The position numbers and the translations under genes are program-made. Shown here piece after piece: positions 11,071 through 52,816 of a stretch of DNA of 64,000 bases; position 1 is the stretch's first letter; each line of letters opens with the position of its first letter. Source of the stretch: Chaenocephalus aceratus. Its lineage: Eukaryota > Chordata > Actinopteri > Perciformes > Channichthyidae. The notes below the pieces were generated by a model. It ran no database searches. It had not been told where the DNA came from and saw nothing but the letters and a program-made list of their open reading frames with translations. Location: positions 62,001 through 126,000 of the forward strand of contig JAMFTG010000573.1 of the NCBI GenBank assembly GCA_023974075.1. The letters run 5' to 3'.

Positions 11071-12021
11071 TCAGCTGTCTCTGCGACACCTCAGCAGCCT
11101 CTTCACATGCGTGAACACCTCCTTTAACTTCAGTCCATACACCACGGGGTTCAGTACAGTGGGTACTAGCATCATCAGGATGGAGGTGATGAGGGTGGAG
11201 TCAGATTCTTTGTTGCTCTGCAGGCGGCGGAGCAGCAGATCTAAGCAGACGCTGATGGAATAGTTAAAGAAGACGAGCAGGTGAGGAAGACAGGTTTGTA
11301 GAGCTTTGCTGCTGAAGCTACGTGAGCGCCGCAGACAGATGAAGAGGATCCTAGCGTAGGAGAAGAGCACGAAGGCGGCAGGCAGGAATATGATAACTGC
11401 TGTGAACAGCAGACCAAATATTCCACTCAGCTGCGCTTCAGCACCACCGCAGCTCAGGCTTACAATGCTGTAGATAATGCAGTAGACCCTGTTGATCTGC
11501 GCCCTGCAGAGCGGTAAGCGGCTCGCCAGCAGCGTTGTGACTCCCCCTCCAATGAAGGGCAGCAACCAGCAGAGAAGCAGCATCAGCACCACCTTGGCAG
11601 GAGTTACCAGCACAGCGTAGTGCATCGGGTGGCAGATGGACAGGTAGCGGTCAAAGGCCATGGCCGACAACAGCATGTAGCTAGCTCCACCAAGAGAGGA
11701 AACAAAGAAACCCTGGCACAGACACAAAGTCCGGGACACCTGCACCAAGCCGGCGCCGGACAGCAACAGGTCTGACAGTAGTTTGGGATAAGTCAGTGTG
11801 CTGACTGTGAGAGAGTTCAGCAGAACTGATGCCACGAAGGCAAACATGGGCCGGTGAAGAGCTCGCTGCGAACAGATGATATAAATCACCAGAGAGTCAC
11901 TGAACAACACGAAGAGGTACAGCAACAAAAACACGAAGAATAAGAGCGAGCTGTGGCCAGACAGCGAGGAGAAACCGACCAGCGTCAGGGACGAGGTCAC
12001 GTTAAACCCTGCTGACGTCAT
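11071..12021 (-). CDS. Odorant receptor OR1 (seven-transmembrane GPCR)
   Basis: An intact, intronless 316-codon frame, the usual length for fish type-1 odorant receptors, which sit in the membrane of olfactory neurons and couple to Golf. Visible hallmarks: N-glycosylation site NVT (residues 7-9); LHRPMF (55-60) at TM2; conserved C100; MAFDRYLSICHPMHY (121-135) at the end of TM3; SYARIL (221-226) in TM5; KALQTCLPHL (239-248) at TM6; and NPVVYGLK (291-298) in TM7. The start chosen is the only upstream ATG, and the same codon is kept in all three copies. Compared with OR2 and OR3 it differs at about 20 and 18 residues; four of its own changes cluster at residues 156-163 in TM4 (F, G, G, T). It is a member of a local three-gene set in inverted or direct copies. 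Expression cannot be judged from sequence. Confidence 0.95.
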   Translation of the reverse strand: MTSAGFNVTSSLTLVGFSSLSGHSSLLFFVFLLLYLFVLFSDSLVIYIICSQRALHRPMFAFVASVLLNSLTVSTLTYPKLLSDLLLSGAGLVQVSRTLCLCQGFFVSSLGGASYMLLSAMAFDRYLSICHPMHYAVLVTPAKVVLMLLLCWLLPFIGGGVTTLLASRLPLCRAQINRVYCIIYSIVSLSCGGAEAQLSGIFGLLFTAVIIFLPAAFVLFSYARILFICLRRSRSFSSKALQTCLPHLLVFFNYSISVCLDLLLRRLQSNKESDSTLITSILMMLVPTVLNPVVYGLKLKEVFTHVKRLLRCRRDS

Positions 12022-15338: not shown

Positions 15339-15815
15339 CGGAGGTATCTTACGGCGATAGAACTCCTTCCGATGATGCTGCTGCAGCTGCTGCCGCCCTG
15401 AACATGGAGCGGATCTTCAATCCCTCCTTTATTCCAGGCGTATTCGCGTAGAATCAGTCATCCTCAGTGTTGGTCATGTTTGCGTACACACCCGGACGGT
15501 GGCCATAGAGGAGGCTCCAATGGAGGGTTAGATAGCCATATAGCAGGTACTGGGTGATTCAGGTCGGATTGCAAGCCATCAGGTCAAGGAGATCAGGGAT
15601 GCGCTTCTCAGCGGCCGCCTTGGCGGCGAGAAGCTCCGCCTGGCTCGGCAGACGATCCAGCTTGTTCCTCTTCACCTTAAACTGGTGGACAGTGACAGAC
15701 TTTTTCAAGTCGTTCATGTTTGCTTTCACCTCTATGATGATGTGGGTCATATCAGACTGGGTGAGCCTGCACCCCCGGAGCTTTGACTCAGACAAGTACC
15801 CTATTTAGAGAGAAT
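15339..15815 (-). pseudogene. Tyrosine-recombinase-like pseudogene fragment, copy 1
   Basis: On the minus strand, 15,795-15,559 encodes a stretch with MSESKLRGCRLTQSDMTH and FKVKRNKLDRLPSQAELL, ending in IPDLLDLMACNPT. This aligns with exon 2 of the intact gene at 25.9-26.6 kb (SRLSQTDMILIKREVV, VKRDKMEGLPSH, IPQLLDVMASNPT). It continues with YGHRPGV-type and NMTN blocks, then jumps directly to FYANTPGIKEGLKIRSMF and a poly-Ala tail, matching the end of the intact protein. Everything between the first catalytic Arg and the Tyr is deleted and stops are present. It is a related but distinct subfamily from the intact gene. Confidence 0.75.
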
Positions 15816-16264
15816 GGACGTCCATTCTCAGGAGACGTCTGACAGTGGGGCGGTTATCCAAAGTGACAGAGCCCCAAACTACGGACTGTAAGCAGGGTCC
15901 CACAGGCACACAGGCAGAGATCCAGGGTGATGCACATGGCTTTCTTAACCAGGTATGAGTGTGTGAAAGCTGGGTACAAGTTATGTGAATACAGGGAGAG
16001 AGGAGCAGCAGCAGCAGCAGGATGTGACCCAGAGAGCTCCTTCCAGCACCTCGCTCTCCCACCACCCAGAGGACAGGCTGCTTCACAGCACTATGTAACC
16101 CAGGAAAGACGCTTTAAACCTGTCCATTTCATCCACATTTGACTCATGAAATGTACAGGAATCTGTCCATTTCATCCACATATGACTCATGAAATGTACA
16201 GCAGAGTCACTGCTGTAAGCAGGGTCCTACAGGCACACAGGCAGAGATCCAGGGTGATGCACAT
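15816..16264. repeat. Satellite-related block with GAAATGTACAG palindromes, copy 1
   Basis: The block holds two copies of the short palindromic motif (16,145-16,200), a CAGGTATGAGTGTGTGAAAGCTGGGTA stretch like the 21-23.8 kb satellite (in pieces), and a repeated CAGAGATCCAGGGTGATGCA. The inverted counterpart is at 36,910-37,315. No gene is seen; open frames are not conserved. Confidence 0.65.
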
Positions 16265-16655
16265 GGGTCAGAAAAAATCTAAGTTAACTTTTGGAAGAAC
16301 CGGAAAAAAGGGGTGAAAATTTACAAATTGTACCCCAAAATAGTGTCTCTTAAGGCGGATATAGTCCCCTGACAACCCCCGTTACATTCCTCCAGAGTCA
16401 GAAAAAGTCTGAGTTAACTTTTGGGAGAACCATAGAAAGGGGTGAAAATGTATCAAATGTATCCCAAAATAGTGTCTCTTAAGGCGGGTAGAGTCCCCTG
16501 ACAACTCTCCTTGCATTCCTCCAGAGCCAGGAAAAACTCTGTTATCTTTTGGGAGAACCAGAGAAAAGGGCTGAAAATGGAGAAATTGTATCGCAAAATA
16601 GTGTCTCTTAAGGCGGGTAGAGTCCCCTGACAACTCTCCTTACATTCCTCCGATT
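16265..16655 (-). repeat. 125-129-bp satellite array, 3 units
   Basis: Units carry GTCAGAAAAAGTCTGAGTTA, AAGGGGTGAAAATG and GGCGGGTAGAGTCCCCTGAC. This is the same family as the arrays near 18.2, 20.2, 29.5, 34.3, 36.7, 56.5 and 62.8 kb. Confidence 0.9.
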
Positions 16656-17340
16656 TCGTGCAGATCGTAGCTTGAAAAACATGAATGCATTTTTTTGACG
16701 GAGGAGGGGAGGTCTCGATTCCCCTCTCCATTGTAAGTTACAACGGGGGAGTGCAAAAGTGTCTGGGGCTTCGGCCCGAAGCGCGGAAGGGTTGGCCTCT
16801 TTCTCTGTTGGCACTTTTTTTAAACTTCATTTTTGATTATTTTAAGATATAATTGAACGTTTTCTTTACTTTTTTCTTCTTTCCACGGATGGGGGCGTAT
16901 GGCACGCTGCCTATGAGCTCCCAAATTCGGCCTGGAACCTCCAGGAATTGTGGGCTATAGTGTTAAAACGCCTGATGAATATGTTAATAATGCTGGCAAC
17001 AGGTTCACTGCTGTTAGCAGTGAACCTGTTGCTTTCAGGATTTTGCGGTGCTTTACCGTCCGCCCATCAGCATCCATATTCGGCCTTCTTCACGGCACCC
17101 CCCCTGTGCTGGAGGTTCAAACTTTAACTGTTTTGTCATATTTTGTCTATGAGCTCCGTATTGCCCTGCAATATCACATTTGGTGTATTTCCAAAAAGCT
17201 ATAAAAATACACCTATCTCTGTCATGTCCTGTAAAATATCATTCTTTGTTTATTTCCATCATTCAGGCAAATACACATATCTTTGTCCGCTCCAGGAGCT
17301 TCAAAGTACAGACTCCTGAGCTCCATCATGTCCTGCAAAA
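16656..17340. repeat. Recurrent modules next to the satellite array, copy 1
   Basis: From left to right there is a CTCCTCCGTC / CCGTTGTAAGTTACAACGG-type block with a GCTTCGGCCCGAAGC near-palindrome (about 16,680-16,800); a GGGGGCGTATGGCA and CCTATGAGCTCCCAAATTCG block (16,890-16,960); one TTTGCGGTGCTTTACCGTCC unit related to the 120-bp array (17,040-17,115); and a GTCCTGTAAAATATCATTCT block. The same modules recur at 30.0-30.45, 33.6-34.1, 36.0-36.6 and 57.3-58.4 kb. No gene is recognised. Confidence 0.7.
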
Positions 17341-18200
17341 TATCATTCTTCCGACCGCCAAGCACCGGCACGTGGACCCGGGCAGGAGGCCCTCCGATGG
17401 CGGGTCAAATGTGCTGATAGCACAGCTGACGGCTGGACACTAGCTGTAGAGGAACACCAGGGCAAGACCAAGCAGTTCCCTCTTTGCAGACAAGCATATG
17501 TGGTTGTTACGCAGGATCAAACAGGTACCCTGTGATGAATTTGGGTCGACCCTATATCATGTGAAGCCACCGAGCCGTGGTCCCCGAGGGAACTGGTGCC
17601 CGGAGCAAGGCCAATTGCTGAATGCTGCAGCCGACTAAGGCCGCTATACAACAGTGGAGGATTAGAGAAACTGATGTTTGCCTGCTACTCTGCGGTGAAG
17701 TGGGGAGGTGGAACTTCCACCCCACTGCGGAACCCGTGGTGGGACCCCTGAGTCAGACGGTTCGTCTTGGAAAGGCTTCATATCTGTTGGCCCGGAAGGT
17801 AAGAGACATGCAGGGTTAACCCCACGCAGCACACCCTCCCGGCCATCAGAGTCGAACCCGCAGTTCGGAAGAACCGACAGCCAGAGCACCGGCACGTGGA
17901 CCGGGGGAGAAGACCCTCCGACTGCGGGTCGCGTTTGCCATTCGATCAGTGAGGTCAGAGGAGAAGAACTCGCAGTTCGGAGGAACAGACCGCCAGAGCA
18001 CCGGCACGAGGCCGGGCCGGCGGAGGCCCTCTGATGGCGGGTTGCGTTTGCCATTCGATCAATGAGGTGAGAGGAGAAGAACGCAGCAAAAATGGACAAC
18101 ATCCGTTAATATACGGTCGAGTTGGGGGGGGGAACGGCTAGACAATGGCCGTCGGGGGGCACCCAGGACCGGGCAGTGCCCCCGGTAGAAATAAAAATAA
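17341..18200. repeat. GC-rich repeat module, copy 1
   Basis: Contains repeated AGAGCACCGGCACG and TTGCCATTCGATCA stretches spaced about 100 bp apart. Homologous modules are at 34,838-35,570 (inverted), 55,880-56,425 and 58,430-59,290. Open frames on both strands are not conserved between copies, so I call no gene. Confidence 0.7.
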
Positions 18201-20625: not shown

Positions 20626-20800
20626 GTACCCAGTGTAAGAGAAACTTCTGTTGCAATGGAAATCAGGACACGGGAGGAGCAGGAATTCTGAATGTCAAAC
20701 ACTGGGATTTATTGAGAGATCCAACGGCCGGGAGAGATTACACAGCATAGTCACATTTTCATGTCGGCCACCTTGCAATCTCTGAAGACATAGCTCAAAA
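20626..20800. other. Short spacer without a recognised feature
   Basis: I see no coding or repeat signature other than the end of segment similarity at about 20,628. Confidence 0.4.
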
Positions 20801-21069
20801 ATATGGTCTGTATAACCATAAGGAGTGGCCTATTTTCCCGCCTCTGGTAATCAACACCAGACCCTAAAAACAAAGACATCTCTATATGCGCCTTCAAACC
20901 CCTCACCCACAGGAAAGCAAAAGACCTCTTTGACCTTTGTCCTCCTCTAGTTACAGACAGAGCACAGGCAAGAAGAACTGAGAATCTTAAAATACAAAGA
21001 GATATCCTTAAAATATTCTCTAACAAGCGCAGAGTATTGGACTATGCCATTGAGTTCAGGACCCTTGCA
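20801..21069 (+). mobile_element. Retroelement-derived fragment fused to 40 bp of gypsy gag
   Basis: The segment 20,807-21,024 matches 44,585-44,803 and, inverted, 50,085-50,303; one frame contains LCPPLVTDRAQARRTENLKI, which I cannot assign to a family. From 21,030 to 21,069 the sequence is gypsy gag (CAGAGTATTGGACTATGCCA onward), matching 46,472-46,511 almost exactly. It then breaks off at CCTTGCA, where the 10-kb insertion begins; gag resumes at 31,064. Confidence 0.8.
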
Positions 21070-23880
21070 TACTCTAGGGACCAGAGGGTACAATGGTTGG
21101 ACATTTACTACCGGCCGCGGTCTGCCTAGTGCCAGGGTCCATATAACCGACCGCAATGCATAGCGGGAAGTCGGTTATATAGACATCAACAAAATAAGTG
21201 TTTAACGGTGACTAGTTTATGCGGGGAAAAGAGTGCTCAAAATCGGATTAAACAGGCCATTTCATCCACACCTCACGACTCCCATCAAAAGTGATTGAAA
21301 TGTACAGGAATCTGTACATTTCATCCACATTTGACGACCCGAGCAGGGTGACTTTGTTACCCAGGAATAAGTGTCTGAAAGTCGGGGAAGATTACTTTAA
21401 ACACAGGGTACACATGGCTGTATTACCCAGCAATTAGTGTGTGAAAGATGGGTAAGTTTGCTGTGAATTTAAGGGAGATATGGCCCTTTCAAACAGGGAG
21501 ATGTACACGGCTTTATTACCCCGGATTTAGTGTCTCAAAGCCCGGTAAGATTACTTTAAATGCATGGTGCACATGGCTGTATTACCCATGAATTAGTGTG
21601 TGAAAGCTGGGTAAGTTTGATGTGAATTTAAGGAAGATATGGCCATTTCATCCACACCTCACGACTCCCATCAAAAGTGATTGAAATGTACAGGAATCTG
21701 TACATTTCATCCACATTTGACGACCCGAGCAGGGTGACTTTGTTACCCAGGAATAAGTGTCTGAAAGTCGGGGAAGATTACTTTAAACACAGGGTACACA
21801 TGGCTGTATTACCCAGCAATTAGTGTGTGAAAGATGGGTAAGTTTGCTGTGAATTTAAGGGAGATATGGCCCTTTCAAACACACCTCACGACTCCCATCA
21901 AAAGTTATTGAAATGTACAGGAATCTGTCCATTTCATTCACATTTGACGACCCGAGCAGGGTGACTTTGTTACCCAGGGATAAGTGTCTGAAAGTCGGGG
22001 AAGATTACTCAGGGTATACAGGACTTTCACCCTCCCCCGTTGGCACTTAGCCGTTTTTCGAGAATCATCCATATACCCTAGGGACCAGAGGGTACAATGG
22101 TTGGACATTTACTACCGGCCGCGGTCTGCCTAGTGCCAGGGTCCATATAACCGACCGCAATGCATAGCGGGAAGTCGGCTATATAGACATCAACAAAATA
22201 AGTGTTTAACGGTGACTAGTTTATGCGGGGAAAAGAGTGCTCAAAATCGGATTAAACAGGCCATTTCATCCACACCTCACGACTCCCATTAAAAGTGATT
22301 GAAATGTACAGGAATCTGTACATTTCATCCACATTTGATGACCCGTCCAGGGTGACTTTCTTCCCCAGGAATTAGTGTCTGAAAGCTGGGTAAGATTACT
22401 TTAAATACTGGGTACACATGGCTTCATTACCCATGAATTAGTATGTGAAAGCTGGGTAAGTTTGATGTGAATTTAAGGAAGATATGGCCATTTCATCCAC
22501 ACCTGATGACTCCCATTAAAAGTGATTGAAATGTACAGGAATCTGTACATTTCATTCACATTTCTTACCCAGGAATTAGTGTCTGAAAGCTGGGTAAGAT
22601 TACTTTAAATACTGGGTACACATGGCTTCATTACCCATGAATTAGTGTGTGAAAGCTGGGTAAGTTTGATGTGAATTTAAGGAAGATATGGCCATTTCAT
22701 CCACACCTGATGACTCCCATTAAAAGTGATTGAAATGTACAGGAATCTGTACATTTCATTCACATTTCTTACCCAGGAATTAGTGTCTGAAAGCTGGGTA
22801 AGATTACTTTAAATACTGGGTACACATGGCTTCATTACCCATGAATTAGTGTGTGAAAGCTGGGTAAGTTTGATGTGAATTTAAGGAAGATATGGCCATT
22901 TCATCCACACCTCACGACTCCCATCAAAAGTGATTGAAATGTACAGGAATCTGTCCATTTCATTCACATTTGACGACCCGAGCAGGGTGACTTTGTTACC
23001 CAGGAATAAGTGTCTGAAAGTCGGGGAAGATTACTCAGGGTCTACAGGACTTTCACCCTCCCCCGTTGGCACTTAGCCGTTTTTCGAGAATCATCCATAT
23101 ACCCTAGGGACCAGAGGGTACAATGGTTGGACATTTACTACCGGCCGCGGTCTGCCTAGTGCCAGGGTCCATATAACCGACCGCAATGCATAGCGGGAAG
23201 TCGGTTATATAGACATCAACAAAATAAGTGTTTAACGGTGACTAGTTTATGCGGGGAAAAGAGTGCTCAAAATCGGAATAAACAGGCCATTTCATCCACA
23301 CCTCACGACTCCCATTAAAAGTGATTGAAATGTACAGGAATCTGTACATTTCATCCACATTTGATGACCCGTCCAGGGTGACTTTCTTCCCCAGGAATTA
23401 GTGTCTGAAAGCTGGGTAAGATTACTTTAAATACTGGGTACACATGGCTTCATTACCCATGAATTAGTGTGTGAAAGCTGGGTAAGTTTGATGTGAATTT
23501 AAGGAAGATATGGCCATTTCATCCACACCTGATGACTCCCATTAAAAGTGATTGAAATGTACAGGAATCTGTACATTTCATTCACATTTCTTACCCAGGA
23601 ATTAGTGTCTGAAAGCTGGGTAAGATTACTTTAAATACTGGGTACACATGGCTTCATTACCCATGAATTAGTGTGTGAAAGCTGGGTAAGTTTGATGTGA
23701 ATTTAAGGAAGATATGGCCATTTCATCCACACCTGATGACTCCCATTAAAAGTGATTGAAATGTACAGGAATCTGTACATTTCAATCACATTCGACGACT
23801 CCATTAGAAATGCATGAAATGTACAGGACTCTGTCCATTTCATCCACATTTGACGACCCGTCAAGGGTGGCTTTCTTAAC
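21070..23880. repeat. Higher-order satellite: about 1.0-kb units with about 204-bp subrepeats
   Basis: The CTAGGGACCAGAGGGTACAA landmark recurs at about 21,075, 22,079 and 23,105 (1,004 and 1,026 bp apart). Between the landmarks, a subrepeat with period 204 bp (GGCCATTTCATCCACACC at 22,486, 22,690 and 22,894) carries two dyads. One is the palindrome GAAATGTACAG / CTGTACATTTC around GAAT; the other is TTACCCAG ... CTGGGTAA. The element's left end lies inside a unit. No coding potential. Confidence 0.9.
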
Positions 23881-24199
23881 CATTATGTACACCGACAAAG
23901 CCACCTCTTCGGGGCCGCTCCAAGACCCCCAAAACACGGACGCAGCAGCCCCAGCATCTCTCCCTGACATGAGCAAACAGGTTATTTCAGACTTCCATGA
24001 AATACCCCGGGGAAAAGCACCTCTCTGTGGCCGCTCCAAGACCCCCAAAACACGGACTAAGGAGCTCCAGGATCTCTCCCTGACATGCGTACTTCCAGAA
24101 CCTCGCACACCTTGGGTCCCCGGGCCCCCGAACTTAAGCACTCCCCCACGGACTAAACCAAGATGATCACACCCTCAAGAATCTCGTGCCCCTGGGAAT
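23881..24199. repeat. Recurrent module with CCAAAACACGGAC repeat
   Basis: A GGCCGCTCCAAGACCCCCAA stretch occurs twice about 110 bp apart. The module recurs near 36,060-36,230 (inverted) and 57,740-57,950. The open frames on both strands are short, Pro/Arg-rich and not conserved. No gene is called. Confidence 0.55.
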
Positions 24200-24890
24200 C
24201 TTAAAGGGGGGTGTATTTTGCGGTGCTTAATCGTCCGCCCATCGGCACCCATAGTCGGCCTTCTTCACAGCAGTACCACCCAACCTCCATGGAGGATTTT
24301 TCTCGTGCCCCTGGCAACACTTAAAGGGGGTCTACTTTGCGGTGCTTTACCGTCCGCCCATCGGCACCCATAGTCGGCCTTCTTCACAGCAGCACCACCC
24401 AACCTCCATGGAGGATTTTTCTCGTGCCCCTGGCAACACTTAAAGGGGGTCTACTTTGCGGTGCTCTATCGTCCGCCCATCGGCACCCATAGTCGGCCTT
24501 CTTCACAGCAGCACCACCCACCCTCCAGTGGAGGATTTTTCTCGTGCCCCTGGCAACACTTAAAGGGGGTCTACTTTGCGGTGCTTTACCGTCCGCCCAT
24601 CGGCACCCATAGTCGGCCTTCTTCACAGCAGCACCACCCACCCTCCAGTGGAGGATTTTTCTCGTGCCCCTGGCAACACTTAAAGGAGGTCTACTTTGCG
24701 GTGCTTTACCGTCCGCCCACCGGCACCCATAGTCGGCCTTCTTCACAGCAGCACCACCCACCCTCCAGTGGAGGATTTTTCTCGTGCCCCTGGCAACACT
24801 TAAAGGGGGGTCTACTTTGCGGTGCTTTACCGTCCGCCCATCGGCACCCATAGTCGGCCTTCTTCACAGCACCACCTGTCCTGCTGGAGG
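24200..24890. repeat. 120-bp tandem array, 6 copies
   Basis: The period is 119-121 bp. Landmarks are GCGGTGCTTTACCGTCCGCC, CACCCATAGTCGGCC and TCGTGCCCCTGGCAACACTT. The minus strand is open across several units (repeating MGADGRTVKHR-like stretches) because the period is near a multiple of three. Two further units lie at 30,776-30,945 and single units in the OR blocks. Confidence 0.93.
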
Positions 24891-25108
24891 TTCACACTTT
24901 AACTTTTTTTACCCTCTTCTACCTTACAAATCATCCCACACTTGAGCACTCCTCACTCGGACTAAACACCTCCATGCTACCACCAGAACCAGAATATCGT
25001 GCCCCTGGAGATCTTAAAGGAAAAAAAACCATAGTGGGCTTTAAAAACAGAAGACTTAGTAATTTTAACAAACTTTATTTACAGTAATATTGACAGTAAT
25101 AAATACAT
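24891..25108. other. 3' flank of the recombinase-like gene
   Basis: Downstream of the gene on its own strand. No clear AATAAA is seen on the minus strand in the first 100 bp; TTTATTTA-type runs at 25,070-25,080 read as TAAATAAA on the gene strand and could serve for polyadenylation. Confidence 0.35.
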
Positions 25109-27498
25109 TCACACAGGATATAAAGTATTTACAAGGGGACTGATTACAACAACACACTGCATATTTACAAGTTGATCACTGGCAAAAGTGGGTGAAGTTG
25201 GGGCAGAGTATGGCACCCTCTCTTCACCCATGTCTGAGGGGCTGTGTTCGGCCAGTGACTGGTCCCTCGTCGCTCGCCAAGCGTTGGCATGTCTTGGTAG
25301 GGAGTCTTGGTAGGGAGCCGGGCTGTGCTCCTCTCCAGAGATGTCACTGTCGATGTCAATACCCGCAAAAGTGTCTTCATTTCCCGCTGCTACTGCTGTC
25401 GATGCCGCCGCCGCTGCTTGCAGTGACTCTGTGAACAGTAACCGAATGTCCGCAGCCTCCTTCAAAGAAGGATTATTCGCGTAAAATTTGTCCGCAGTTG
25501 CAGTGTTGTGACACATGAAATCACTAACTCTTTGGCGGTTGCCTTTGTCTTGAAACCTCTTCGCATTATCGGCGTGGACTGTGCGGAGGTCGGTGAAGTT
25601 AATGGGACCGTGGAGCCCCACATCAGCCCAGGCCAACCTCAGGGAGTAGGCAAGCTTCCTGAACGGGTTCTTCCCCTCTGTGTATAGAAAGTAACGGCTC
25701 TGGGTGCAGGTCAGCGTACCCTTGATTTCCAGCCACCTCTTCATCCATCCAAATTCTTCTACGGTGAGGTACAGCTGCGCTTCCCCGAACGCGTTGGCCG
25801 TCTTGTGGTTGCTTACCTGTTATGACAGAGTTAGAGAGTGTCAATACAATGTAAATCATGCATATAACTGCCAGAATAAATGCATTGATTAATAGCACTC
25901 ACATGAACCAGATAGCCGAAGGCAGTGCCAGTTGTATCCGCCTTTCGGACCTCGGCGTTGGTCATGTTGGAGTAGACCCCCGGACGATGGCCGTAAATGC
26001 AGCTCCAATGAAGAGTCATATAGCCATAGAGCAGGGTCCGGGTTGTGGTAGTCGGATTGCTGGCCATCACATCCAGGAGCTGAGGGATGCGAATGGTGGT
26101 CGAAGTCAAGCATGTCATTAGGTCGTTGTGGCTCGGCAGACCTTCCATCTTGTCACGCTTCACTTGCATCTGGTGGACAAGTACTTTTCTCTTCAGGGAC
26201 TTCAAGATGGCAACTACTTCCCGTTTGATTAAAATCATGTCGGTTTGGCTGAGCCTGCTCCCCTTGCACGGTGTGTCGGCCATGTACTTGAGAAAGTGTG
26301 ATATATTCTTGATGTAGAAGTCGGAGGTCGTGACCTGAAGGCTTGACTTCATCAGGCTTGACTTCATCAGGCTCCGGGACCACCCGCGTATCCTCTTGAG
26401 ATCCCTCAAAAAGAGCCAGTCAGACAGGCGATTGAACCCGTGAGCCATGAAACTTAGGAACGACTTCACTCTGCTCAGTTTGGAAACTGTGTTTTCCTGG
26501 AGCCTCACTGGTGGGTCGATACCTGCATAATGCTCCCGGTATCCTTGAAGATACTCCTCTGTGAAATATAAACAGTACTTTAATGACAACACATCGTGTG
26601 TTACAGAAACTGCATGTGTCACATAGCCAACACACTTACCCATGACCCGTGGGAATGTGATGTCCCGCATTATATTTCCCCGGCCCCTGCCCCGGAACCA
26701 GGGGGAATGGATGGGAGGGGAGGTTGACGAGGCCTCGGTATGCATGGATGCAGGCTCTGAGGAGCTGGATGAATGTGTGTGAGAGCCAGTGGGGGACTCG
26801 CTGCAGGCGGGAATGGGAGACTTGCTGCAGGAGGGACCTTTCGACTTGGACAGCCTCGTTGGTGTCGACTCTGTTCGGGGTCGTTTCTTCAGAATGACCC
26901 GCTCTCGTTCCTCCCCATCGAACGCGGGCATGTCCCCGGCCCGCTGATCCATCCTCTGTCGCTTGTGCTTTATCCTCTGCTGCAACTTGCAGCGCAGGGA
27001 TTTCACCTCAGCAGCATATATGTCCCGCTGAGCCCTCACTGCGTTTGCCTCCAGCCTCCATTCTTTGCAGTCCGGGTTGTCACATTCATTCACCGGGGAC
27101 AAGGGTGGAGGTTGTGACAGTATATCGTCGTCTGCCACCGTGTCAACAGCCCAAGCGGTAATCATTTCTATGGTGGGGTTTGTCATTCGGAGTTCATAAA
27201 GCTCCTTCTTGGCCACTGTCATTTTCAGTTTATTTTGAACCACATGTAGTTCCTCCCGGGCCAGCTCAACATGGTCTCTGGCCAAGTGGCGATCCAGCCT
27301 TGTGCCGCGGTATTCGCATCCCAGAATGGTACAGGGATGGAGCCTAATGTTGGTCCGTCCGTTGGCCAACAACAGCAGAATTTTTCTTTCAACCAAGTTA
27401 CGCACACCATGGCGCCTCTGCAGGTGCTTGCTCAGGGCGAGGTAGGAACTATTACAGATCGGACAACGGACCGCCATCCAACCTGTATTCTTGAGCAT
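25109..27498 (-). CDS. Tyrosine-recombinase-like (Crypton-type) protein, three exons
   Basis: Predicted exons are 27,498-26,640, 26,558-25,903 and 25,816-25,109. Introns begin GTAAGT and GTGAGT and end CAG; the sum is 2,223 nt, in frame, 740 aa. The N terminus has two C2H2-like fingers (C12, C15, H25, H30 and C56, C61, H71, H76), then a predicted coiled region, a basic Ser/Pro-rich linker and a core-binding-like region from about 287. Catalytic candidates are R478 (HRPGVYSNMT), K510 (NHKTANAFG), R583 (FTDLRTVHA), H608 and Y617 (MCHNTATADKFYA), with the usual nine-residue H-to-Y spacing. The His of the HxxR box is Thr here. The C terminus is Ala-rich and acidic. Such enzymes cut and rejoin DNA through a Tyr-phosphate link. 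Intron 1 is itself open, so an unspliced reading is possible; an upstream in-frame ATG at 27,675 exists, but M1 or M8, just before the first finger, is likelier. A 15-bp duplication gives SLMKSSLMKSS. Confidence 0.75.
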
Positions 27499-27719
27499 TT
27501 CAGTACCGGGAAATGTCACCAGAATCGTGGGTAAAAAAGAAGGAAGCGTGAAAAGACTCACGAAAGATGCACTCAGCTTATTTTCAAATCGGTGTTTGTT
27601 TTCATTTGCATCATGGTGCGGTGTCCCATTTAGGCACTCGTTAGGCGGGCAGAGATCCCTGTAATCTCCCCTCACGTTCCTCCAGAGTCTGGTTCTCCCA
27701 AAGGATACCCGACAGTTTC
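27499..27719. other. 5' flank of the recombinase-like gene
   Basis: The minus strand is open upstream of the chosen start but Cys/His-poor and Leu/Phe-rich (about 59 codons), probably untranslated. At 27,655-27,700 one partial 129-bp-satellite unit (AATCTCCCCTCACGTTCCTC) leads into the minisatellite, so any promoter lies next to or within repeats. Confidence 0.4.
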
Positions 27720-29456
27720 GGGTACGACAACGTGGGGATAGCAGTACCCTCCGGGCGTTCCGTCCCCCAGGGGAGGCATTGAACCCCTCTCACCTGCCCC
27801 CGGAGGAGGCAGGGGAGTCAGGTACCCAGAGGGTGGACGGCCAGGGCGAGGCCGCCACACCGCGCTGGAGTCAGGGTCCCGGTGAGGCGCAGGACGGAGC
27901 ACCCGGCAGTAGCCTCCAGCAGACCCCCGCACGGTTCCCTCGTCCCTCGGAAGAGGTGGAGAGGCGGGTGTTTTCATCTGCTGGCGGGTTGTCGGGGGAA
28001 CAGTATCCTCCGGGGAGGCATTGAACCCCTCTCACCTGCCCCCGGAGGAGGCAGGGGAGTCAGGTACCCAGAGGGCGCACGGTGGACGGCCAGGGCCGCC
28101 ACACCGCGCTGGAGTCAGGGTCCCGGTGAGGCGCAGGACGGAGCACCCGGCAGTAGCCTCCAGCAGACCCCCGCACGGTTCCCTCGTCCCTCGGAAGAGG
28201 TGGAGAGGCGGGTGTTTTCATCTGCTGGCGGGTTGCCGGGGGAACAGTATCCTCCGGGGAGGCATTGAACCCCTCTCACCTGCCCCCGGAGGAGGCAGGG
28301 GAGTCAGGTACCCAGAGGGCGCACGGTGGACGGCCAGGGCGAGGCCGCCACACCGCGCTGGAGTCAGGGTCCCGGTGAGTCGCAGGACCGAGCACCCGGC
28401 AGTAGCCTCCAGCAGACCCCCGCACGGTTCCCTCGTCCCTCGGAAGAGGTGGAGAGGCGGGTGTTTTCATCTGCTGGCGGGTTGTCGGGGGAACAGTATC
28501 CTCCGGGGAGGCATTGAACCCCTCTCACCTGCCCCCGGAGGAGGCAGGGGAGTCAGGTACCCAGAGGGCGCACGGTGGACGGCCAGGGCCGCCACACCGC
28601 GCTGGAGTCAGGGTCCCGGTGAGGCGCAGGACGGAGCACCCGGCAGTAGCCTCCAGCAGACCCCCGCACGGTTCCCTCGTCCCTCGGAAGAGGTGGAGAG
28701 GCGGGTGTTTTCATCTGCTGGCGGGTTGCCGGGGGAACAGTATCCTCCGGGGAGGCATTGAACCCCTCTCACCTGCCCCCGGAGGAGGCAGGGGAGTCAG
28801 GTACCCAGAGGGCGCACGGTGGACGGCCAGGGCGAGGCCGCCACACCGCGCTGGAGTCAGGGTCCCGGTGAGGCGCAGGACGGAGCACCCGGCAGTAGCC
28901 TCCAGCAGACCCCCGCACGGTTCCCTCGTCCCTCGGAAGAGGTGGAGAGGCGGGTGTTTTCATCTGCTGGCGGGTTGCCGGGGGAACAGTATCCTCCGGG
29001 GAGGCATTGAACCACTCTCACCTGCCCCCGGAGGAGGCAGGGGAGTCAGGTACCCAGAGGGCGCACGGTGGACGGCCAGGGCCGCCACACCGCGCTGGAG
29101 TCAGGGTCCCGGTGAGGCGCAGGACGGAGCACCCGGCAGTAGCCTCCAGCAGACCCCCGCACGGTTCCCTCGTCCCTCGGAAGAGGTGGAGAGGCGGGTG
29201 TTTTCATCTGCTGGTGGGTTGCCGGGGGAACAGTATCCTCCGGGGAGGCATTGAACCCCTCTCACCTGCCCCCGGAGGAGGCAGGGGAGTCAGGTACCCA
29301 GAGGGTGGACGGCCAGGGCGAGGCCGCCACACCGCGCTGGAGTCAGGGTCCCGGTGAGGCGCAGGACGGAGCACCCGGCAGTAGCCTCCAGCAGACCCCC
29401 GCACGGTTCCCTCGTCCCTCGGAAGAGGTGGAGAGGCGGGTGTTTTCATCTGCTGG
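27720..29456. repeat. GC-rich minisatellite with alternating 244/249-bp units
   Basis: The landmark GGAGGCATTGAACC recurs with GGCATT at 27,775, 28,017, 28,261, 28,510, 28,754, 29,003 and 29,247 (steps 242, 244, 249, 244, 249, 244). Units differ by a GCGAG insertion (GGCGAGGCCGCC versus GGCCGCC) and by GCGCAC, so the true period is a 493-bp dimer. Long frames on both strands exist only because the DNA is GC-rich and repeated; no two units keep one frame, so I call no protein. Confidence 0.95.
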
Positions 29457-29990
29457 CCAGAGTCAGAAAAAGTATAAGTTAACTTTTTGGAAGAACCATA
29501 GAAAAGGGTGAAAATGGATAAATTGTATCCGAAAATAGTGTTCCATAAGGCGGGTAGAGTCCCCTGACAACTCCCCTACCTTCCTCCAGAGTCAGAAAAA
29601 GTATAAGTTAACTTTTTGGAAGAACCATAGAAAAGGGTGAAAATGGATAAATTGTATCCGAAAATAGTGTTCCATAAGGCGGGTAGAGTCCCCTGACAAC
29701 TCCCCTACCTTCCTCCAGAGTCAGAAAAAGTACAAGTTAACTTTTTGGAAGAACCATAGAAAAGGGTGAAAATGGATAAAATGTATCCCAAAATAGTGTT
29801 CCATAAGGCGGGTAGAGTCCCCTGACAACTCCCCTACCTTCCTCCAGAGTCAGAAAAAGTCTAAGTTAACTTTTTGGAAGAACCATAAAAAAGGGTGAAA
29901 ATGGATAAAATGTATCCCAAAATAGTGCCCCTTGAGGCAGGTAGAGTCCCCTGACAACTCCCCTTGCATTCCTCCAGACACCAGTTTGAA
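29457..29990 (-). repeat. 129-bp satellite array, 4 units
   Basis: The step is exactly 129 bp (AGTCAG at 29,461, 29,590, 29,719 and 29,848), with high identity between units. It is the most regular array of this family in the window, which suggests recent amplification. Confidence 0.95.
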
Positions 29991-30465
29991 AACTTAAAGT
30001 TTTGTGAGAACCAGGATTGGGGGTCCTCTTGGCAACAATTTCATCCGATCCAAAGTGCTCCTGAGGCGGATACATTCCTCCATGATTTCCCCATCATGTG
30101 AAAAGTGCTCTCAAAAACCGGGTTTCCGATTTCGTGCAGATGGTAGCTTGGAAAGATGAATGAATTTTTTGGACGGAGGAGGGGAGCTCTGGTTTCCCCT
30201 CTCCGTTGTAAATTGCAACGGGGGAGTGCAAAAGTCTCCGGGGCTTCGTCCCGAAGCGCCGAAGACTTGACCCCCTCCCCCGTTGGCACTTAGCCGTTTT
30301 TCCAGAATTTTCAAAAGCTTCATTTTTGACTATTTTAACATATAATTGACCGTTTTCTTTACTTTTTTTTGCTTTCCACGGGTGGGGACGCATGGCAGGC
30401 CGCCTATGAGCTTCCAAATTCGGCCTGGAACCTCCGGGAATTATGGGTTAAGCTCCATATACTGA
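29991..30465 (-). repeat. Recurrent modules beside the array, in the 10-kb element
   Basis: In inverted order these are the same modules as at 33.6-34.2 kb: the AACCGGGTTTCCGATTTCGT block, the CCGTTGTAAATTGCAACGGG stem block, and the CGCATGGCAGGCCGCCTATG and AATTCGGCCTGGAACCTCCG blocks. No gene is seen. Confidence 0.7.
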
Positions 30466-30760
30466 CGACTCCCATTAAAAATGCATGAAATGTACAGGAA
30501 TCTGTCCATTTCAATCACATTCGACGACCCCATTAAAAATGCATGAAATGTACAGGAATCTGTCCATTTCAATCACATTCAACGACCCCATTAAAAATGC
30601 ATGAAATGTACAGGAATATGTCCATTAAAAATGCATGAAATGTACAGGAATCTGTCCATTTCATCCACATTCGACGACCCCATTAAAAATGCATGAAATG
30701 TACAGGAATCTGTCCATTTCAATCACATTTGATGACCGGTCCAGGGTGACTTTGTCTGGT
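30466..30760. repeat. Cluster of GAAATGTACAG palindromes
   Basis: At least five units of 52-60 bp, each with TGCATGAAATGTACAGGAAT followed by CTGTCCATTTC and a CACATTCGACGACC spacer. The right arm has one base different from the perfect palindromes at 21-23.8 kb (GTCC for GTAC). Confidence 0.85.
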
Positions 30761-31056
30761 GAGTCAGAAAAGAGGTGTATTTTGCGGTTCTTTATCGTCC
30801 GCTCATCGGCACCCATAGTCGGCCTCTTTCACAGCAGCAGCACCCACCCTCCATGGAGGGTATTCTCGTGCCCCTGGCAACACTTGAAGGGGGTGTATTT
30901 TGCGGTGCTTTATCGTCCGCCCATCGGCACCCATAGTCGGTCCAGTCGCTGACAGGTACTTGACATCGGAGGTTGACATCGCATTTCCATTGAGCGGACA
31001 TGCGTACATCTGAAGGGCAAGTTCCACGGTACCTCCGTCTCTAAGGCTGACATGTG
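30761..31056. repeat. Two 120-bp units and right end of the 10-kb element
   Basis: The two units of the 24.2-kb array type lie at 30,776-30,945. The last 110 bp (30,946-31,056) are not repeated elsewhere in the window and would be the element's unique right terminus. Confidence 0.7.
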
Positions 31057-31063
31057 CCTTACA

Positions 31064-31436
31064 GCAGATAGTGGCTGGAATTCTTCAGCACTGCTCGACG
31101 CCTTTTTGTCTGGTCTTTCGGATTCCATTAAAGACCAGTTAATACCTTTGGACCTCACAGAAGACTTGGATTCTGTCATTGCACTGGCAGTTCGAATAGA
31201 CAATAGACTGGCCGAAAGACAAAAACAAAGGTTCAAGAATGTGGCACGTCTGCCTCTACACCAAGGGGACACACCAAGCCATCATCCGGCCTGGAGACCT
31301 CCTGCCGATCCTGAATGCGTCTTTGGCGCATAAAGGAGGGCAGGTGTTTTTACTGTGGGGAGCAGGGGCACCTCCTGGCTTCTTGTACAGCAAAAGATCG
31401 GGCTCATCAGGGACGAGGAGGACCCTGGTGAGCCGA
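31064..31436 (+). pseudogene. Gypsy gag fragment, right of the 10-kb insertion
   Basis: Reads ADSGWNSSALLDAFLSGLSD, then a [20 protein letters not shown] stretch (here TEDL). Compared with 46.5-46.9 kb it lacks about 90 bp before the zinc knuckle, shifts frame, and the second Cys codon region is altered ([13 protein letters not shown] in place of a CCHC reading). It joins directly to L2-like sequence at the same point as the 46.9-kb copy, so the chimera predates the duplication. Non-functional. Confidence 0.85.
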
Positions 31437-35570: not shown

Positions 35571-36300
35571 AGCTCAGGAGTCTGCACTTTGAAGCTCCTG
35601 GAGCGGACAAAGATATGTGTATTTGCCTGAATGATGGAAATAAACAAAGAATGATATTTTACAGGACATGACAGAGTTAGGTGTATTTTCATAGCTTTTT
35701 GGAAATACACCAAATGTGATATTGCAGAGAAATACGCAGCTCATATACCCATGTGATGTTGTGCAGTACATTACTGAGCTCATTTAACGACATGGAGTAC
35801 CAGGGGCACTAAGGGCACTAAGGGGCACTAAGGTCTTACCCGGATGTCCTTATGTGTTTAGTCAGAATGAGAGTGCTTGAGTTTGGGTACACAGTTTTGC
35901 CAGGTGCACCCACCCGTGGAAAGACGAAATATGACAAAACAGTTCAAGTTTGAACCTCCAGCACAGGGGGGGTGCCATGAAGAAGGCCGAATATGGAAAA
36001 GCACCGCAAAATCCACCCCCTTTTTAGGGTTTCCAGGGGCATGAGGTTCTGTAGGGTGTGAACATCTGGGTTTAGTCCGTGGGGGAGTGCTTAAGTCCGG
36101 GGGCCCAGGGTCTCACGGTGTGCGAGGTTATGGAAGTGCGCATGTTAGGGAGACATGCTGGAGCTGCTTAGTCCGTCCTTTGGGGCTCTGTGAAGGGCCA
36201 CAGAGAGGTGGTTTTTGCGGTCTGTCTCCTGGAAGTGTGAAAAACCTGTTTGCCTTTTGCCTTTGCCTGTGAGTGTGAGACCCTGCTAACAGCAGTGAAC
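35571..36300. repeat. Recurrent modules, copy 2 (ATATCATTCT, CACGGACTAAACCC and 120-bp-unit types)
   Basis: Inverted relatives of 57,700-58,440. Includes one diverged 120-bp unit near 35,975-36,025, a tripled GGGGCACTAAGG near 35,812-35,833, and the CTTTGCCTGTGAGTGTGAGA stretch. No gene. Confidence 0.6.
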
Positions 36301-36915
36301 CTGCTGCCAGCATTATTAACATATTAATCAGGAGTTTTAACACTATAGCCCACAATTCCTGGAGGTTCCAGGCCGAATTTGGGAGCTCATAGGCAGCGTG
36401 CCATACGCCCCCACCCGTGGAAAGAAGAAAAAAGTAAAGAAAACGTTCAATTATATCTTAAAATAATCAAAAATGAAGTTTAAAAAAAGTGCCAACAGAG
36501 AAAGGGGCCAACCCTTTGGCGCTTAGGGCCGAAGCCCCAGACACTTTTCCACTCCCCCGTTGTAACTTACAATGGAGAGGGGAATCGAGACCTCCCCTCC
36601 TCCGTCAAAAAAATTCACTCATGTTTTTCAATCTACGATCTGCACGAAATCGGAGGAATGTAAGGAGAAATGTCAGGGGACTCTATTCGCCTTAAGAGAC
36701 ACTATTTTGGGATACAATTTCTCCATTTTCAGCCCTTTTCTCAGGTTCTCCCAAAAGATAACAGAGTTTTTCCTGACTCTGGAGGAATGCAAGGAGAGTT
36801 GTCAGGGGACTCTACCCGCCTTAAGAGACACTATTTTGGGATACATTTGATACATTTTCACCCCTTTCTATGGTTCTCCCAAAAGTTAACTTAGACTTTT
36901 TCTGACCCATGTGCA
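36301..36915 (+). repeat. Recurrent modules and 125-129-bp satellite array, 2-3 units, copy 2
   Basis: Inverted partner of 16,265-16,990. Contains the CCGTTGTAACTTACAATGG stem block, then units with GGCGAATAGAGTCCCC-type cores. Confidence 0.82.
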
Positions 36916-37309
36916 TCACCCTGGATCTCTGCCTGTGTGCCTGTGGGACCCTGCTTACAGCAGTGACTCTGCTGTACATTTCATGAGTCAAATGTGGATG
37001 AAATGGACAGGTTTCAAGCGTCTTTCCTGGGTTACATAGTGCTGTGAAGCAGCCTGTCCTCTGGGTGGTGGGAGAGCGAGGTGCTGGAAGGAGCTCTCTG
37101 GGTCACATCCTGCTGCTGCTGCTGCTCCTCTCTCCCTGTATTCACATAACTTGTACCCAGCTTTCACACACTCATTCCTGGGTAAGAAAGCCATGTGCAT
37201 CACCCTGGATCTCTGCCTGTGTGCCTGTGGGACCCTGCTTACAGTCCGTAGTTTGGGGCTCTGTCACTTTGGGTAACCGCACCACTGTCAGACGTCTCCT
37301 AAGAATGGA
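36916..37309. repeat. Satellite-related block with palindrome, copy 2
   Basis: Inverted partner of 15,816-16,264, with a (CTG)6-like run at 37,110-37,125 and one GAAATG/CATTTC dyad near 36,972-37,010. The ORF common to copies 1 and 2 (minus in 1, plus in 2, about 93 codons) has no recognised motif; I leave it uncalled. Confidence 0.6.
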
Positions 37310-37805
37310 CGTCCATTCTCTCTAAATAGGGTACTTCTCTGAGTCAAAGCTCCGGGGGTGCAGGCTCACCCAGTCTGATATGACCCACATCATCATAGAG
37401 GTGAAAGCAAACTTGAACGACTTGAAAAAGTCTGTCACTGTCCACCAGTTTAAGGTGAAGAGGAACAAGCTGGATCGTCTGCCGAGCCAGGCGGAGCTTC
37501 TCGCCGCCAAGGCGGCGGCTGAGAAGCGCATCCCTGATCTCCTTGACCTGATGGATTGCAATCCGACCTCAATAACCCAGTACCTGCTATATGGCCATCT
37601 AACCCTCCATTGAAGCATCCTCTATGGCCGCCGTCCGGGTGTGTACGCAAACATGACCAACACTGAGGATGACTGATTCTACGCGAATACGCCTGGAATA
37701 AAGGAGGGATTGAAGATCCGCTCCATGTTCAGGGCTGCAGCAGCTGCAGCAGCTGCAGCAACATCATCGGAAGGAGTTCTACCGCCGTAAGATACCTCCG
37801 TAGAG
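37310..37805 (+). pseudogene. Tyrosine-recombinase-like pseudogene fragment, copy 2
   Basis: Inverted partner of the copy-1 fragment and nearly identical to it. Exon-2-like coding (37,332-37,612) stops at a TGA in LTLH*SILYGRRPGV, continues to NMTNTEDD and a stop, then FYANTPGIKEGLKIRSMF with a longer Ala run (CAG repeat, 37,733-37,760). The junction that removed the K, HxxR and H motifs is identical in both copies, so the deletion predates the block duplication. Confidence 0.78.
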
Positions 37806-40856: not shown

Positions 40857-40905
40857 TGACCTGAGGTCACAGCGTGTTGTTTGTTGGGGTCTCCTCATGA
40901 CGTCA
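40857..40905 (+). promoter_or_regulatory. OR2 start region: everted AGGTCA pair and CRE over the ATG
   Basis: TGACCTGAGGTCA (40,857-40,869) and TGACGTCA (40,898-40,905), at the same spacing as in copies 1 and 3. Confidence 0.45.
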
Positions 40906-45867: not shown

Positions 45868-46952
45868 ATGGACCCATCGGATTCAGAGACAGTGAAGATA
45901 GCTCTGCGAGCTCAAGGAGCGAGACTACACACCCATGAGGAGCTGCTGGGCGCCATCAACCTAGGGGTGAGGGACTTGACCGGCCGTCAGTAAAATGTTC
46001 AAGCCTCCATCAATACTCAGGTGAATCACCTTGCCGAACAGCTGCACCGTGTCCTCGCTCACCTGGAAGCTCACCGGTTCATCCCCTCAGCCTCCTGCTA
46101 TTGCTCACACACCACTTCCTCCAGCTGATCGTGTGCCACTCCATGCTCCACCGCCTCGTCTGGCATCTCCAGAGCGATTCTCCAGAGCGATTCTCCGGAG
46201 ATTCCGGTGACTGTCGCCCTTTCATTGTTCATTGTGATCTCCATTATAAATATAACCCTGCTGCGTTCCCCACTGATCACTCTAAAGTGTCCTTCATGGT
46301 GAGCCAATTAACGGGGAGAGCAGCGGCCTGGGCTACGTCCGAATGGGCGAGAGATTCACCTACCTGTAATTCTCTGGATGTATTTACAGACACTCTCACC
46401 AAGGTGTTTAATCGCACGGCTCCTGGAAGGGAGGCAGCCAGAGCACTGATGCAGATTAAGCAGAGTCAGCACAGAGTATCGGACTATGCCATTGAGTTCA
46501 GGACCCTTGCAGCAGATAGTGGCTGGAATTCTTCAGCACTGCTCGACGCCTTTTTGTCTGGTCTTTCGGATTCCATTAAAGACCAGTTAATACCTTTGGA
46601 CCTCCCAGAAGACTTGGATTCTGTCATTGCACTGGCAGTTCGAATAGACAATAGACTGGCAGAAAGACAAAAACAAAGGTTCAAGAATGTGGCACGTCTG
46701 CCTCTACACCAAGGGGACACACCAAGCCATCATCCGGCCTGGAGACCTCCTGCCGATACTCCTCCTGAGAGAAGAGTGCTCCCTAGTGTCTCAGAGGAGC
46801 CTATGCAGTTGGGTCGGGCAAAGTTGACTCCGGAGGAACGTCTTTGGCGCATTCAGGAGGGCAGGTGTTTTTACTGTGGGGAGCTGGGGCACCTCCTGGC
46901 TTCTTGTACAGCAAAAGATCAGGCTCATCAGGGACGAGGAGGACCCTGGTGA
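45868..46952 (+). pseudogene. Gypsy gag gene, broken by a stop and a frameshift
   Basis: Gag is the structural polyprotein of an LTR retrotransposon. The reading from 45,868 opens MDPSDSETVKIALRAQG and meets a TAA at 45,991-45,993. After a frame change the capsid-like part runs from about 46,180 (CDLHYKYNPAAFPTDHSKV, SQLTGRAAAWATSEWA, VSDYAIEFRTLAADSGW). The zinc knuckle [14 protein letters not shown] (C-x2-C-x4-H-x4-C) is at 46,866-46,907. It ends at 46,952 where L2-like sequence takes over. No protease, RT or integrase follows. It provides the uninterrupted version (CCTTGCA at 46,505-46,511) of the site where the 10-kb element sits. Confidence 0.85.
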
Positions 46953-51865: not shown

Positions 51866-52816
51866 TCAGCTGTCTCTGCGACACCTCAGAAGCCTCTTCA
51901 CATGCGTGAACAACTCCTTTAACTTCAGGCCGTACACCACGGGGTTCAGTACAGTGGGTACTAGCATCATCAGGATGGAGGTGATGAGGGTGGAGTCAGA
52001 TTCTCTGTTGCTCTGCAGGCGGCGGAGCAGCAGATCTAAGCAGACGCTGATGGAATAGTTAAAGAAGACGAGCAGGTGAGGAAGACAGGTTTGTAGAGCT
52101 TTGCTGCTGAAGCTACGTGAGTGCCGCAGACAGATGAAGAGGATCCTAGCGTAGGAGAAGAGCACGAAGGCGGCAGGCAGGAATATGATAACTGCTGTGA
52201 TCAGCAGACCAAATATTCCACTCAGCTGCGCTTCAGCACCACCGCAGCTCAGGCTCACAATGCTGTATATGTCGCAGTAGACCCTGTTGAGCTGCGCCCT
52301 GCAGAGCGGTAAGCGGCTCGCCAGCAGCGCTGTGACTCCCACTAGAATAACAGGCAGCAACCAGCAGAGAAGCAGCATCAGCACCATCTTGGCAGGAGTT
52401 ACCAGCACAGCGTAGTGCATCGGGTGGCAGATGGACAGGTAGCGGTCAAAGGCCATGGCCGACAACAGCATGAAGCTAGATGCACCAAGAGAGGAAACTA
52501 AGAAACCCTGGCACAGACACAAAGTCCGGGACACCTGCACCAAGCCGGCGCCGGACAGCAACAGGTCTGACAGAAGTTTGGGATAAAACACAGTACTGGC
52601 TGTGAGAGAGTTCAGCAGAACTGATGCCACGAAGGCAAACATGGGCCGGTGAAGAGCTCGCTGCGAACAGATGATATAAATCACCAGAGAGTCACTGAAC
52701 AACACGAAGAGGTACAGCAACAAAAACACGAAGAATAACAGCGAGCTGTGGCCAGACAGCGAGGAGAAACCGACCAGCGTCAGGGACGAGGTCACGTTAA
52801 ACCCTGCTGACGTCAT
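51866..52816 (-). CDS. Odorant receptor OR3 (seven-transmembrane GPCR)
   Basis: An intact 316-codon single-exon frame, same orientation as OR1. All family landmarks are kept. Own changes include A73, L106, A112, F115 (GFLVSSLGASSFM at TM3), M144, D182, H232 and L302. D182 lies in extracellular loop 2 and F115 faces the TM3 region where odorant receptors bind ligand, so a shifted ligand range is plausible. TM4 keeps the VILVG sequence shared with OR2, showing that OR1's version is the derived one. Upstream are 6 units of the 100-bp satellite. Confidence 0.95.
   Translation of the reverse strand: MTSAGFNVTSSLTLVGFSSLSGHSSLLFFVFLLLYLFVLFSDSLVIYIICSQRALHRPMFAFVASVLLNSLTASTVFYPKLLSDLLLSGAGLVQVSRTLCLCQGFLVSSLGASSFMLLSAMAFDRYLSICHPMHYAVLVTPAKMVLMLLLCWLLPVILVGVTALLASRLPLCRAQLNRVYCDIYSIVSLSCGGAEAQLSGIFGLLITAVIIFLPAAFVLFSYARILFICLRHSRSFSSKALQTCLPHLLVFFNYSISVCLDLLLRRLQSNRESDSTLITSILMMLVPTVLNPVVYGLKLKELFTHVKRLLRCRRDS

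Follow-up and report, generated by a model that had tools for sequence, protein, structure and literature searches.

A putative Crypton-type tyrosine-recombinase transposon with element-borne satellite arrays in the icefish Chaenocephalus aceratus

Among the Cryptons surveyed by Kojima and Jurka (2011, PMC3212892), terminal direct repeats of 6 bp are described for most fungal families and of 5-6 bp for CryptonS, none were found in the animal families that the survey covers, and the integration mechanism rests on analogy with prokaryotic tyrosine-recombinase (YR) elements. Here, a stretch of 64,000 nucleotides from C. aceratus (contig JAMFTG010000573.1 of assembly GCA_023974075.1, positions 62,001 to 126,000 of the forward strand; hereafter the window) was analysed, in which an insert of about 10 kb carrying a YR gene splits a gypsy gag sequence. 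This insert is very probably a DNA transposon moved by its own tyrosine recombinase, because its ends are fixed in dispersed copies, its short core sequences follow a constant pattern, head-to-tail junctions hold a single core, two empty sites were recognized, the YR gene is intact and the satellites are borne by the element. The general features that were tested support a Crypton-type YR transposon with element-borne satellites, an assignment at class level only. The features that define the insertion are the following:

21069..31062, minus strand (that of the gene): whole YR element, left end ATACTCTAGGG..., right end ...GACATGTG-CCTTAC, defined from 47 right ends and 49 left-end rows
21063..21068, plus strand: left core CCTTGC, target-derived, identical in the empty paralogue at 46505-46510
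31057..31062, plus strand: right core CCTTAC, a constant part of the element, present at all 47 right ends read
46505..46510, plus strand: empty target core CCTTGC in the paralogous gag
30946..31056, plus strand: right terminal module, from 40 scored genome copies of 280 candidates

Within the window, the left flank of the insert (21026-21069) was 95.5% identical to 46468-46511 over 44 bp, and the right flank (31057-31309) was 98.8% identical to 46505-46757 over 253 bp, both alignments overlapping at the gag junction in CCTTGCA and CCTTACA, respectively. In random pairs, a 7-bp junction overlap of this quality (no more than one mismatch) would arise with a probability of 0.0013-0.0016. Collinearity of the right flank with the 46-kb locus reaches 33496/48565 with small gaps, so that the gag pieces at 21 and 46 kb appear to have come from a single gypsy fragment by segmental duplication. 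To the left of the insert the gag extends over just 44 bp, the sequence at 20800-21025 being a different repeat, and the 46-kb locus has about 1.66 kb extra at its left side, missing at 21025/21026, 44 bp from the left end of the element. The element starts with ATACYCTAGGG and finishes with GACATKTG-CCTTAC; its left end is not unique, since the first unit is repeated inside the insert at 22073 and 23099. A preliminary description of this DNA had stated that the gag is split at 21 and 31 kb and continuous at 46 kb with a single CCTTGCA, and that the insert lacks inverted ends. The flank alignments bear out the former, and the latter was confirmed by comparing the two 400-bp ends, which have no terminal inverted repeats at their tips and whose sole significant inverted match is internal (positions 214-263 against 323-372). 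The short direct repeat that it had reported at the flanks is also present, but with a core of 6 bp and not 7, the seventh base, A, being the first base of the element and by chance also found in the target. The rejected 7-bp core stemmed from a query containing the core letters, and both a core-blind search and copies found by their left ends gave 6 bp.

The assembly of 1,064,297,438 bases was searched with the last 118 bp of the element and with a query without the core, the best 40 of 280 candidates being scored in each case, and with the first 186 bp, for which the best 40 of 545 candidates, including the window itself, were scored. All 40 scored places of the core-blind search were read, and all 40 end in GACAT[G/T]TG-CCTTAC. 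With seven more, CCTTAC was found at 47 of 47 right ends, representing 34 distinct flanks; this count excludes L009-L011, which repeat L012-L014, as well as L094 and L097, in which no right end was found. The base that follows was A in 25 of the 31 right flanks not flagged as tandem and T in the other 6, and the core is therefore 6 bp long. Some of the 47 right ends came through the core-holding query, which favours A as the next base, and the T cases came from the other two routes. L107, flagged as head-to-tail by an 8-letter test, differs in the further letters and is not tandem, yet it is absent from these 31 flanks, while L109, a diverged left-end-like start, was kept among them. At positions +7/+8, moreover, the target right flanks lean towards T/A and A, the corresponding letters of the element's own left end being TA; such a lean would be expected of a target and a left end that fit the same recombinase half-site.

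The left side follows a different rule. The 49 left-end rows, composed of the places from the left-end search, nine of the ten fully read copies and the window, comprised 35 distinct external flanks, 6 head-to-tail cases, 6 near-duplicates and 2 internal cases; copy C16:0.40M, with an altered end, was left out of the count. The 6 bases before the first A of the element were CCTAAC (6), ACTAAC (6), CCTTAC (5), ACTTAC (4), CCTACC (2) and twelve others found once each, among them the CCTTGC of the window. Their consensus is near NCTWAC, with a final C in 35 of 35 distinct flanks, and the left core was unlike CCTTAC in 30 of the 35. Both cores could be read together in nine sampled copies and were unequal in seven. 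Because the empty paralogue has CCTTGC, the left 6-mer represents target letters. Moreover, the copy at C16:43.37 Mb sits in a minisatellite whose surrounding units read ACTTAC, which provides a second empty site: without the element and one core the spacing becomes 22, the native spacings being mostly 18 or 22, whereas with both cores kept it would be 29. A left core taken from the target and a right core brought by the element form the footprint predicted by YR exchange over a short overlap. Cut-and-paste by a DDE transposase acting in trans, with a 6-bp target-site duplication and the YR gene as cargo, could account for the short direct repeats flanking the copies; however, such an enzyme would leave the same letters on both sides, which disagrees with a right core that is constant (47 of 47), a left core that differs from it (30 of 35) and the seven unequal pairs of nine. 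This explanation is very unlikely, also in view of the missing terminal inverted repeats and of the absence of a DDE domain from the 10 of 56 open reading frames (ORFs) scanned.

Seven right ends pass directly into a left end with a single CCTTAC between them (L017, L026, L030, L031, L104, L108 and L115), and head-to-tail arrangements were found at 6 of 39 fetched left ends, three reading ACATTTT-CCTTACA instead of ACATTTG-CCTTACA. Such one-core junctions would be expected from a circle junction or from insertion into the core of a resident copy. Under transposition by the element's own enzyme, the recombinase would join the ends into a circle across CCTTAC, the circle would pair with a target of similar 6 bp, and a staggered exchange would leave the target core on the left and place the circle core on the right. 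Head-to-tail chains and longer-period repeats would then follow from renewed insertion into a resident copy, either at its core or at a similar internal site. The many near-identical copies indicate that the element was probably amplified recently in this icefish.

The candidate enzyme is encoded as follows:

25109..27498, minus strand: YR gene, 740 amino acids (aa), exons 27498-26640, 26558-25903 and 25816-25109
25074..25079, minus strand: AATAAA polyadenylation signal

The three exons, separated by GT-AG introns, encode a protein without stops in which the motifs YGHRPG (aa 475), HKT (509), FTDLRT (579), FMCHN (605) and ADKFY (613) were identified, with two zinc-finger-like Cys/His motifs seen by eye near the N-terminus. 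The structural model of the close relative P0002 indicates that this protein family has the YR fold, and Tn1549 integrase structures were among the matches listed for the structure comparison. P0002 residues R197, K229, R302, H327 and Y336, the proposed catalytic R-H-R-Y set with its K, have counterparts in the window protein and in most relatives covering these places, the exceptions being P0018 (first R and K), P0003 (K segment missing), P0015 (second R and Y) and P0024 (region of the first R degraded), whereas P0013, P0034, P0035, P0036 and P0038 are without all or part of the catalytic region. The family is spread fish-wide, and the relatives inspected at sequence level are single YR proteins, most of them with N-terminal Cys/His motifs; one listed relative, P0124, carries a reverse-transcriptase domain. 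Pfam and Protein Data Bank sequence searches returned nothing usable for the window YR gene itself, and no relatives of the protein were found among viral contigs and bacterial genomes; of two DNA patterns compared with the viral contigs, one matched three loci and the other none. A Pfam scan of 10 of the 56 insert ORFs of at least 70 aa and of the two YR ORFs revealed no reverse-transcriptase, RNase H or DDE domain, DUF3435 was not matched in the Pfam scans, no second gene was seen among the scanned ORFs, and DUF3504 had no match at E <=1 in sets A1 (10 sequences) and A3 (8, partly shared) and in 9 further relatives. As an additional observation, for 13 of the 28 Danio rerio rows of the family the longest contig measures 76,376,419 bases, as though they were clustered on a single chromosome, and none of the rows is functionally named.

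Most of the remaining insert is repetitive, with tandem arrays detected by Tandem Repeats Finder (TRF) spanning 5,337 of its 9,987 bp:

21069..23857, plus strand: left array with 2.7 copies of an approximately 1-kb unit starting at 21069, 22073 and 23099, made of 58-bp units and other repeats
23973..24876, plus strand: module Afl and 120-bp array (24182-24876), adjoining the YR gene 3′ end
27638..27692, minus strand: YR gene 5′ flank, up to 83% identical to the 129-bp satellite unit
27770..29457, plus strand: 244-bp minisatellite; translation of a homologous unit forms the N-terminus of a YR protein model from Gymnodraco
29457..29978, plus strand: 129-bp array, from TRF
29978..30447, plus strand: modules M7 (29978-30124) and M8 (30125-30447)
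30464..30940, plus strand: right-hand array of 58-bp units holding 5 dyad sites, followed by some 1.4 copies of the 120-bp unit; a direct repeat, in the same order, of left modules

Ten copies were read over 20 kb, of which nine, measuring 8.1-14.6 kb, have YR gene matches, and four more copies traced from the left end measured 7.0-11.0 kb. All nine have the module order of the window (left unit and 58-bp units, Afl, 120-bp array, YR gene, 244-bp array, 129-bp array, M7, M8, 58-bp array, 120-bp unit and right terminus), three of them also having a weak additional M7 match (69%) where the 129-bp array begins, and because of this shared order the satellites are parts of the element. The tenth copy, gene-less and 1,781 bp long, holds only the left unit, 58-bp units, a 120-bp unit and the right terminus; in its right flank (L032, after 9703), a small number of CCCTAA repeats, like those of telomeres, precede a segment similar to the older satellite blocks (see window 15800). 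Array lengths vary, the window included, from about 5 to 15 units for the 120-bp array and from about 1 to 7 for the 244-bp array. The source of two arrays seems partly visible in the gene flanks, the 5′ flank resembling the 129-bp unit at up to 83% (lowest E 6e-9) and the 3′ flank the beginning of the 120-bp region at 74% (E 7e-10); some arrays may thus have grown from gene-adjacent sequence, with lengths changing by ordinary tandem-repeat variation. P0007, the Gymnodraco model, which belongs to another subfamily, opens with a translated 244-bp unit, and the matches of P0076, P0077 and P0104 to the arrays were set aside as low-complexity. Separately, CCATACA (seven of ten copies) or CCATA (one copy) stands before an internal left-end repeat, mostly after an M8-like piece, an arrangement that resembles the trace of a previous insertion into the element at a site similar to the core.

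The terminal modules, directly repeated at both ends, bear a loose likeness to the split direct repeats of YR retrotransposons. It could be proposed that the element is such a retrotransposon, DIRS, Ngaro or PAT-like, whose reverse transcriptase was lost, and DIRS1 elements are reported in notothenioids in the relevant part of PMC5941688. Against this origin, which appears very improbable, the gene retains two introns, known modules fill most of each sampled copy (about 1.6 kb being unmapped in one), and the relatives inspected at sequence level are single YR proteins, with P0124 as the one listed relative bearing a reverse-transcriptase domain. Extremely unlikely, in turn, is the copying of a satellite macro-array piece into the gag by error-prone break repair through microhomology, with the YR gene as a passenger. 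Other satellite rearrangements in the window do show short microhomology (18.9 kb against 59-61 kb, 3-bp CTG, by eye), and the absence of the 1.66 kb so close to the left junction fits break repair; nevertheless, dozens of sites unrelated to each other carry these two ends, and microhomology gives neither fixed ends nor a fixed right core, which refutes it as a general account of the copies. That assembly joins produced the insert and its flanks is hardly conceivable, since identical junction letters occur at many places on chromosome-scale scaffolds, even if the region is repeat-rich and its own scaffold (C573) probably unplaced.

Several observations weigh against transposition by the element's own recombinase. 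No right end was met within the 7-kb stretch read for two of six copies traced from the left, one of the ten fully read copies (C16:0.40M) has an altered left end, and the YR gene matches of the nine sampled copies contain stops in three cases and lack the gene middle in one. The P0002 model is weak (predicted local distance difference test, pLDDT, below 50) at residues 327-337, which include the proposed H and Y; the candidate catalytic residues were assigned by conservation, and recombinase activity is predicted from sequence. The scored samples (the best 40 among 280 candidates on the right and the best 40 among 545 on the left) leave older, diverged copies outside, unequal exchange can also make head-to-tail junctions, no circle was observed, and the probably unplaced state of the window scaffold counts here as well. 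On balance, the preliminary reading of a Crypton-type element is supported by shared boundaries, short core repeats, an intact YR gene and the lack of inverted ends. The gene that it had called apparently intact proved to be so, and the comparison of boundaries in other copies that it had proposed beforehand returned the same two ends at 47 of 47 right ends and 35 distinct left flanks. Its suggestion of a large, satellite-laden Crypton-like form with 5-6 kb of arrays held, the satellites being present in nine of nine sampled YR-bearing copies; the window copy, which it had taken as unusual, is ordinary within its own family.

The 58-bp arrays contain a further candidate for recombinase recognition:

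21297..23841, plus strand: 11 dyad sites, GAAATGTACAG-GAAT-CTGT[A/C]CATTTC, one with centre GACT; candidate recombinase sites, as a lead only
21297, 21683, 21910, 22301, 22528, 22732, 22936, 23327, 23554, 23758 and 23816: starts of these left dyads, all in one orientation

In total, 16 dyads occur in the insert (one with four mismatches), 11 to the left and 5 to the right of the gene and all in the same orientation, and only one, at 16148, was found elsewhere in the whole window with up to 5 mismatches. Conservation was 0.983 in the dyads and 0.914 in the rest of the 58-bp unit, a difference that was not significant (p 0.096). YR sites are described in PMC3212892 as inverted arms of 11-13 bp placed 6-8 bp apart. 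By analogy the dyads may be YR sites, but their centre differs from the integration core, and an interrupted palindrome at 21137-21184 is likewise a candidate site. It is possible, though rather doubtful, that the element is a self-mobile satellite, a single replicating unit made up of recombinase gene and tandem arrays, in which the 58-bp dyad arrays would be recombinase sites and the same enzyme would insert the unit, trim it to shorter or gene-less forms and stack it head to tail. If so, satellite DNA would be made and spread by its own encoded enzyme in icefish, and perhaps in other fishes with this YR family.

Older relatives of the element are also found in the window:

15421..15804, minus strand: relic gene from a second YR subfamily (86% identity to P0010 across 126 residues), adjoined by satellite modules in the same order
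37263..37805, plus strand: second relic of that subfamily, an inverted paralogue

Beside the relic genes (15.4 and 37.5 kb), most modules of the element recur, and in unchanged order. Between these satellite modules, the paralogous blocks 15421-17134, 36283-37805 and 55870-59292 hold either second-subfamily relic YR genes or a stretch without YR (Tx, 17145-18200), and their units are arranged head to tail. In addition, ACCCAGT, at 20628, 44804, 50065 and 63345, lies exactly at a breakpoint common to several arrangements, two satellite-block copies ending there with different flanks and two loci being uninterrupted; as an apparent second 7-bp junction it was set aside. Three similar ORFs of 316 aa (11071-12021, 40897-41847 and 51866-52816), olfactory-receptor-like by eye, fall within segmental duplications that occur in both orientations and have a 100-bp satellite close by (13188, 39035 and 53932).

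No description of the icefish element was found in the open-access full texts searched, subscription papers and Repbase being outside that search, and Crypton is unmentioned in the main-text portions of PMC10256766, PMC13131655 and PMC10522714 available. The fixed right core and the target-derived left core constitute a direct footprint of YR integration in a vertebrate and offer a ready site pair for a recombination assay. The association of several satellites with one transposon bears on how satellites spread, and the element is abundant in a fish group known, as far as PMC10256766 describes it, for transposon-driven genome growth. An uncharacterised kind of animal transposon is made directly testable by its many copies, which reveal its landing-site choice and its marked end.

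The icefish element shares with Cryptons such as CryptonA of medaka and CryptonF of fungi, as the survey of Kojima and Jurka (2011, PMC3212892) outlines them, a YR as the only recognised enzyme and the absence of inverted ends. With most fungal families and CryptonS it has short terminal direct repeats in common (4-6 bp being typical of Cryptons), here a 6-bp core reading CCTTAC on the right and NCTWAC-like on the left, and with the medaka Crypton it shares many copies and gene-less derivatives. It differs from the animal Cryptons of that survey in its clear 6-bp core, fixed on the right and variable on the left, and its N-terminal zinc-finger-like motifs and 5-6 kb of element-borne satellites are without counterpart in the portions of that description considered here. 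CryptonV is similarly a YR element with target preference, and one icefish copy lies in a minisatellite; however, the elements treated in the pertinent part of PMC8869645 are cnidarian and some of their families lie in microsatellites, whereas icefish targets are mostly unrelated sites sharing a 6-mer. A link between satellite and Crypton was also proposed for TCAST2 and Crypton-2_TCa of Tribolium, where motifs of 5-9 nucleotides are duplicated at dispersed copies, but according to the relevant excerpts of PMC4316633 and PMC5844308 that likeness covered 159 bp at 70% similarity and was later deemed not significant, while the icefish satellites lie inside the element in every YR-bearing copy sampled. 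Fungal Starships, as partially surveyed, are likewise large elements whose classification is centred on the YR, but they carry gene cargo and reach about 700 kb, the extra DNA of the icefish element being satellite. The Starship captain gene is of the DUF3435 type. In Tn916 and Tn1549, coupling sequences flank the integrated element. These bacterial elements resemble that of icefish in having a YR, a circular junction (predicted in icefish), a target of similar short overlap and unequal short flanking sequences, but they have no satellites, and the icefish element keeps the core of one end constant in every copy read.

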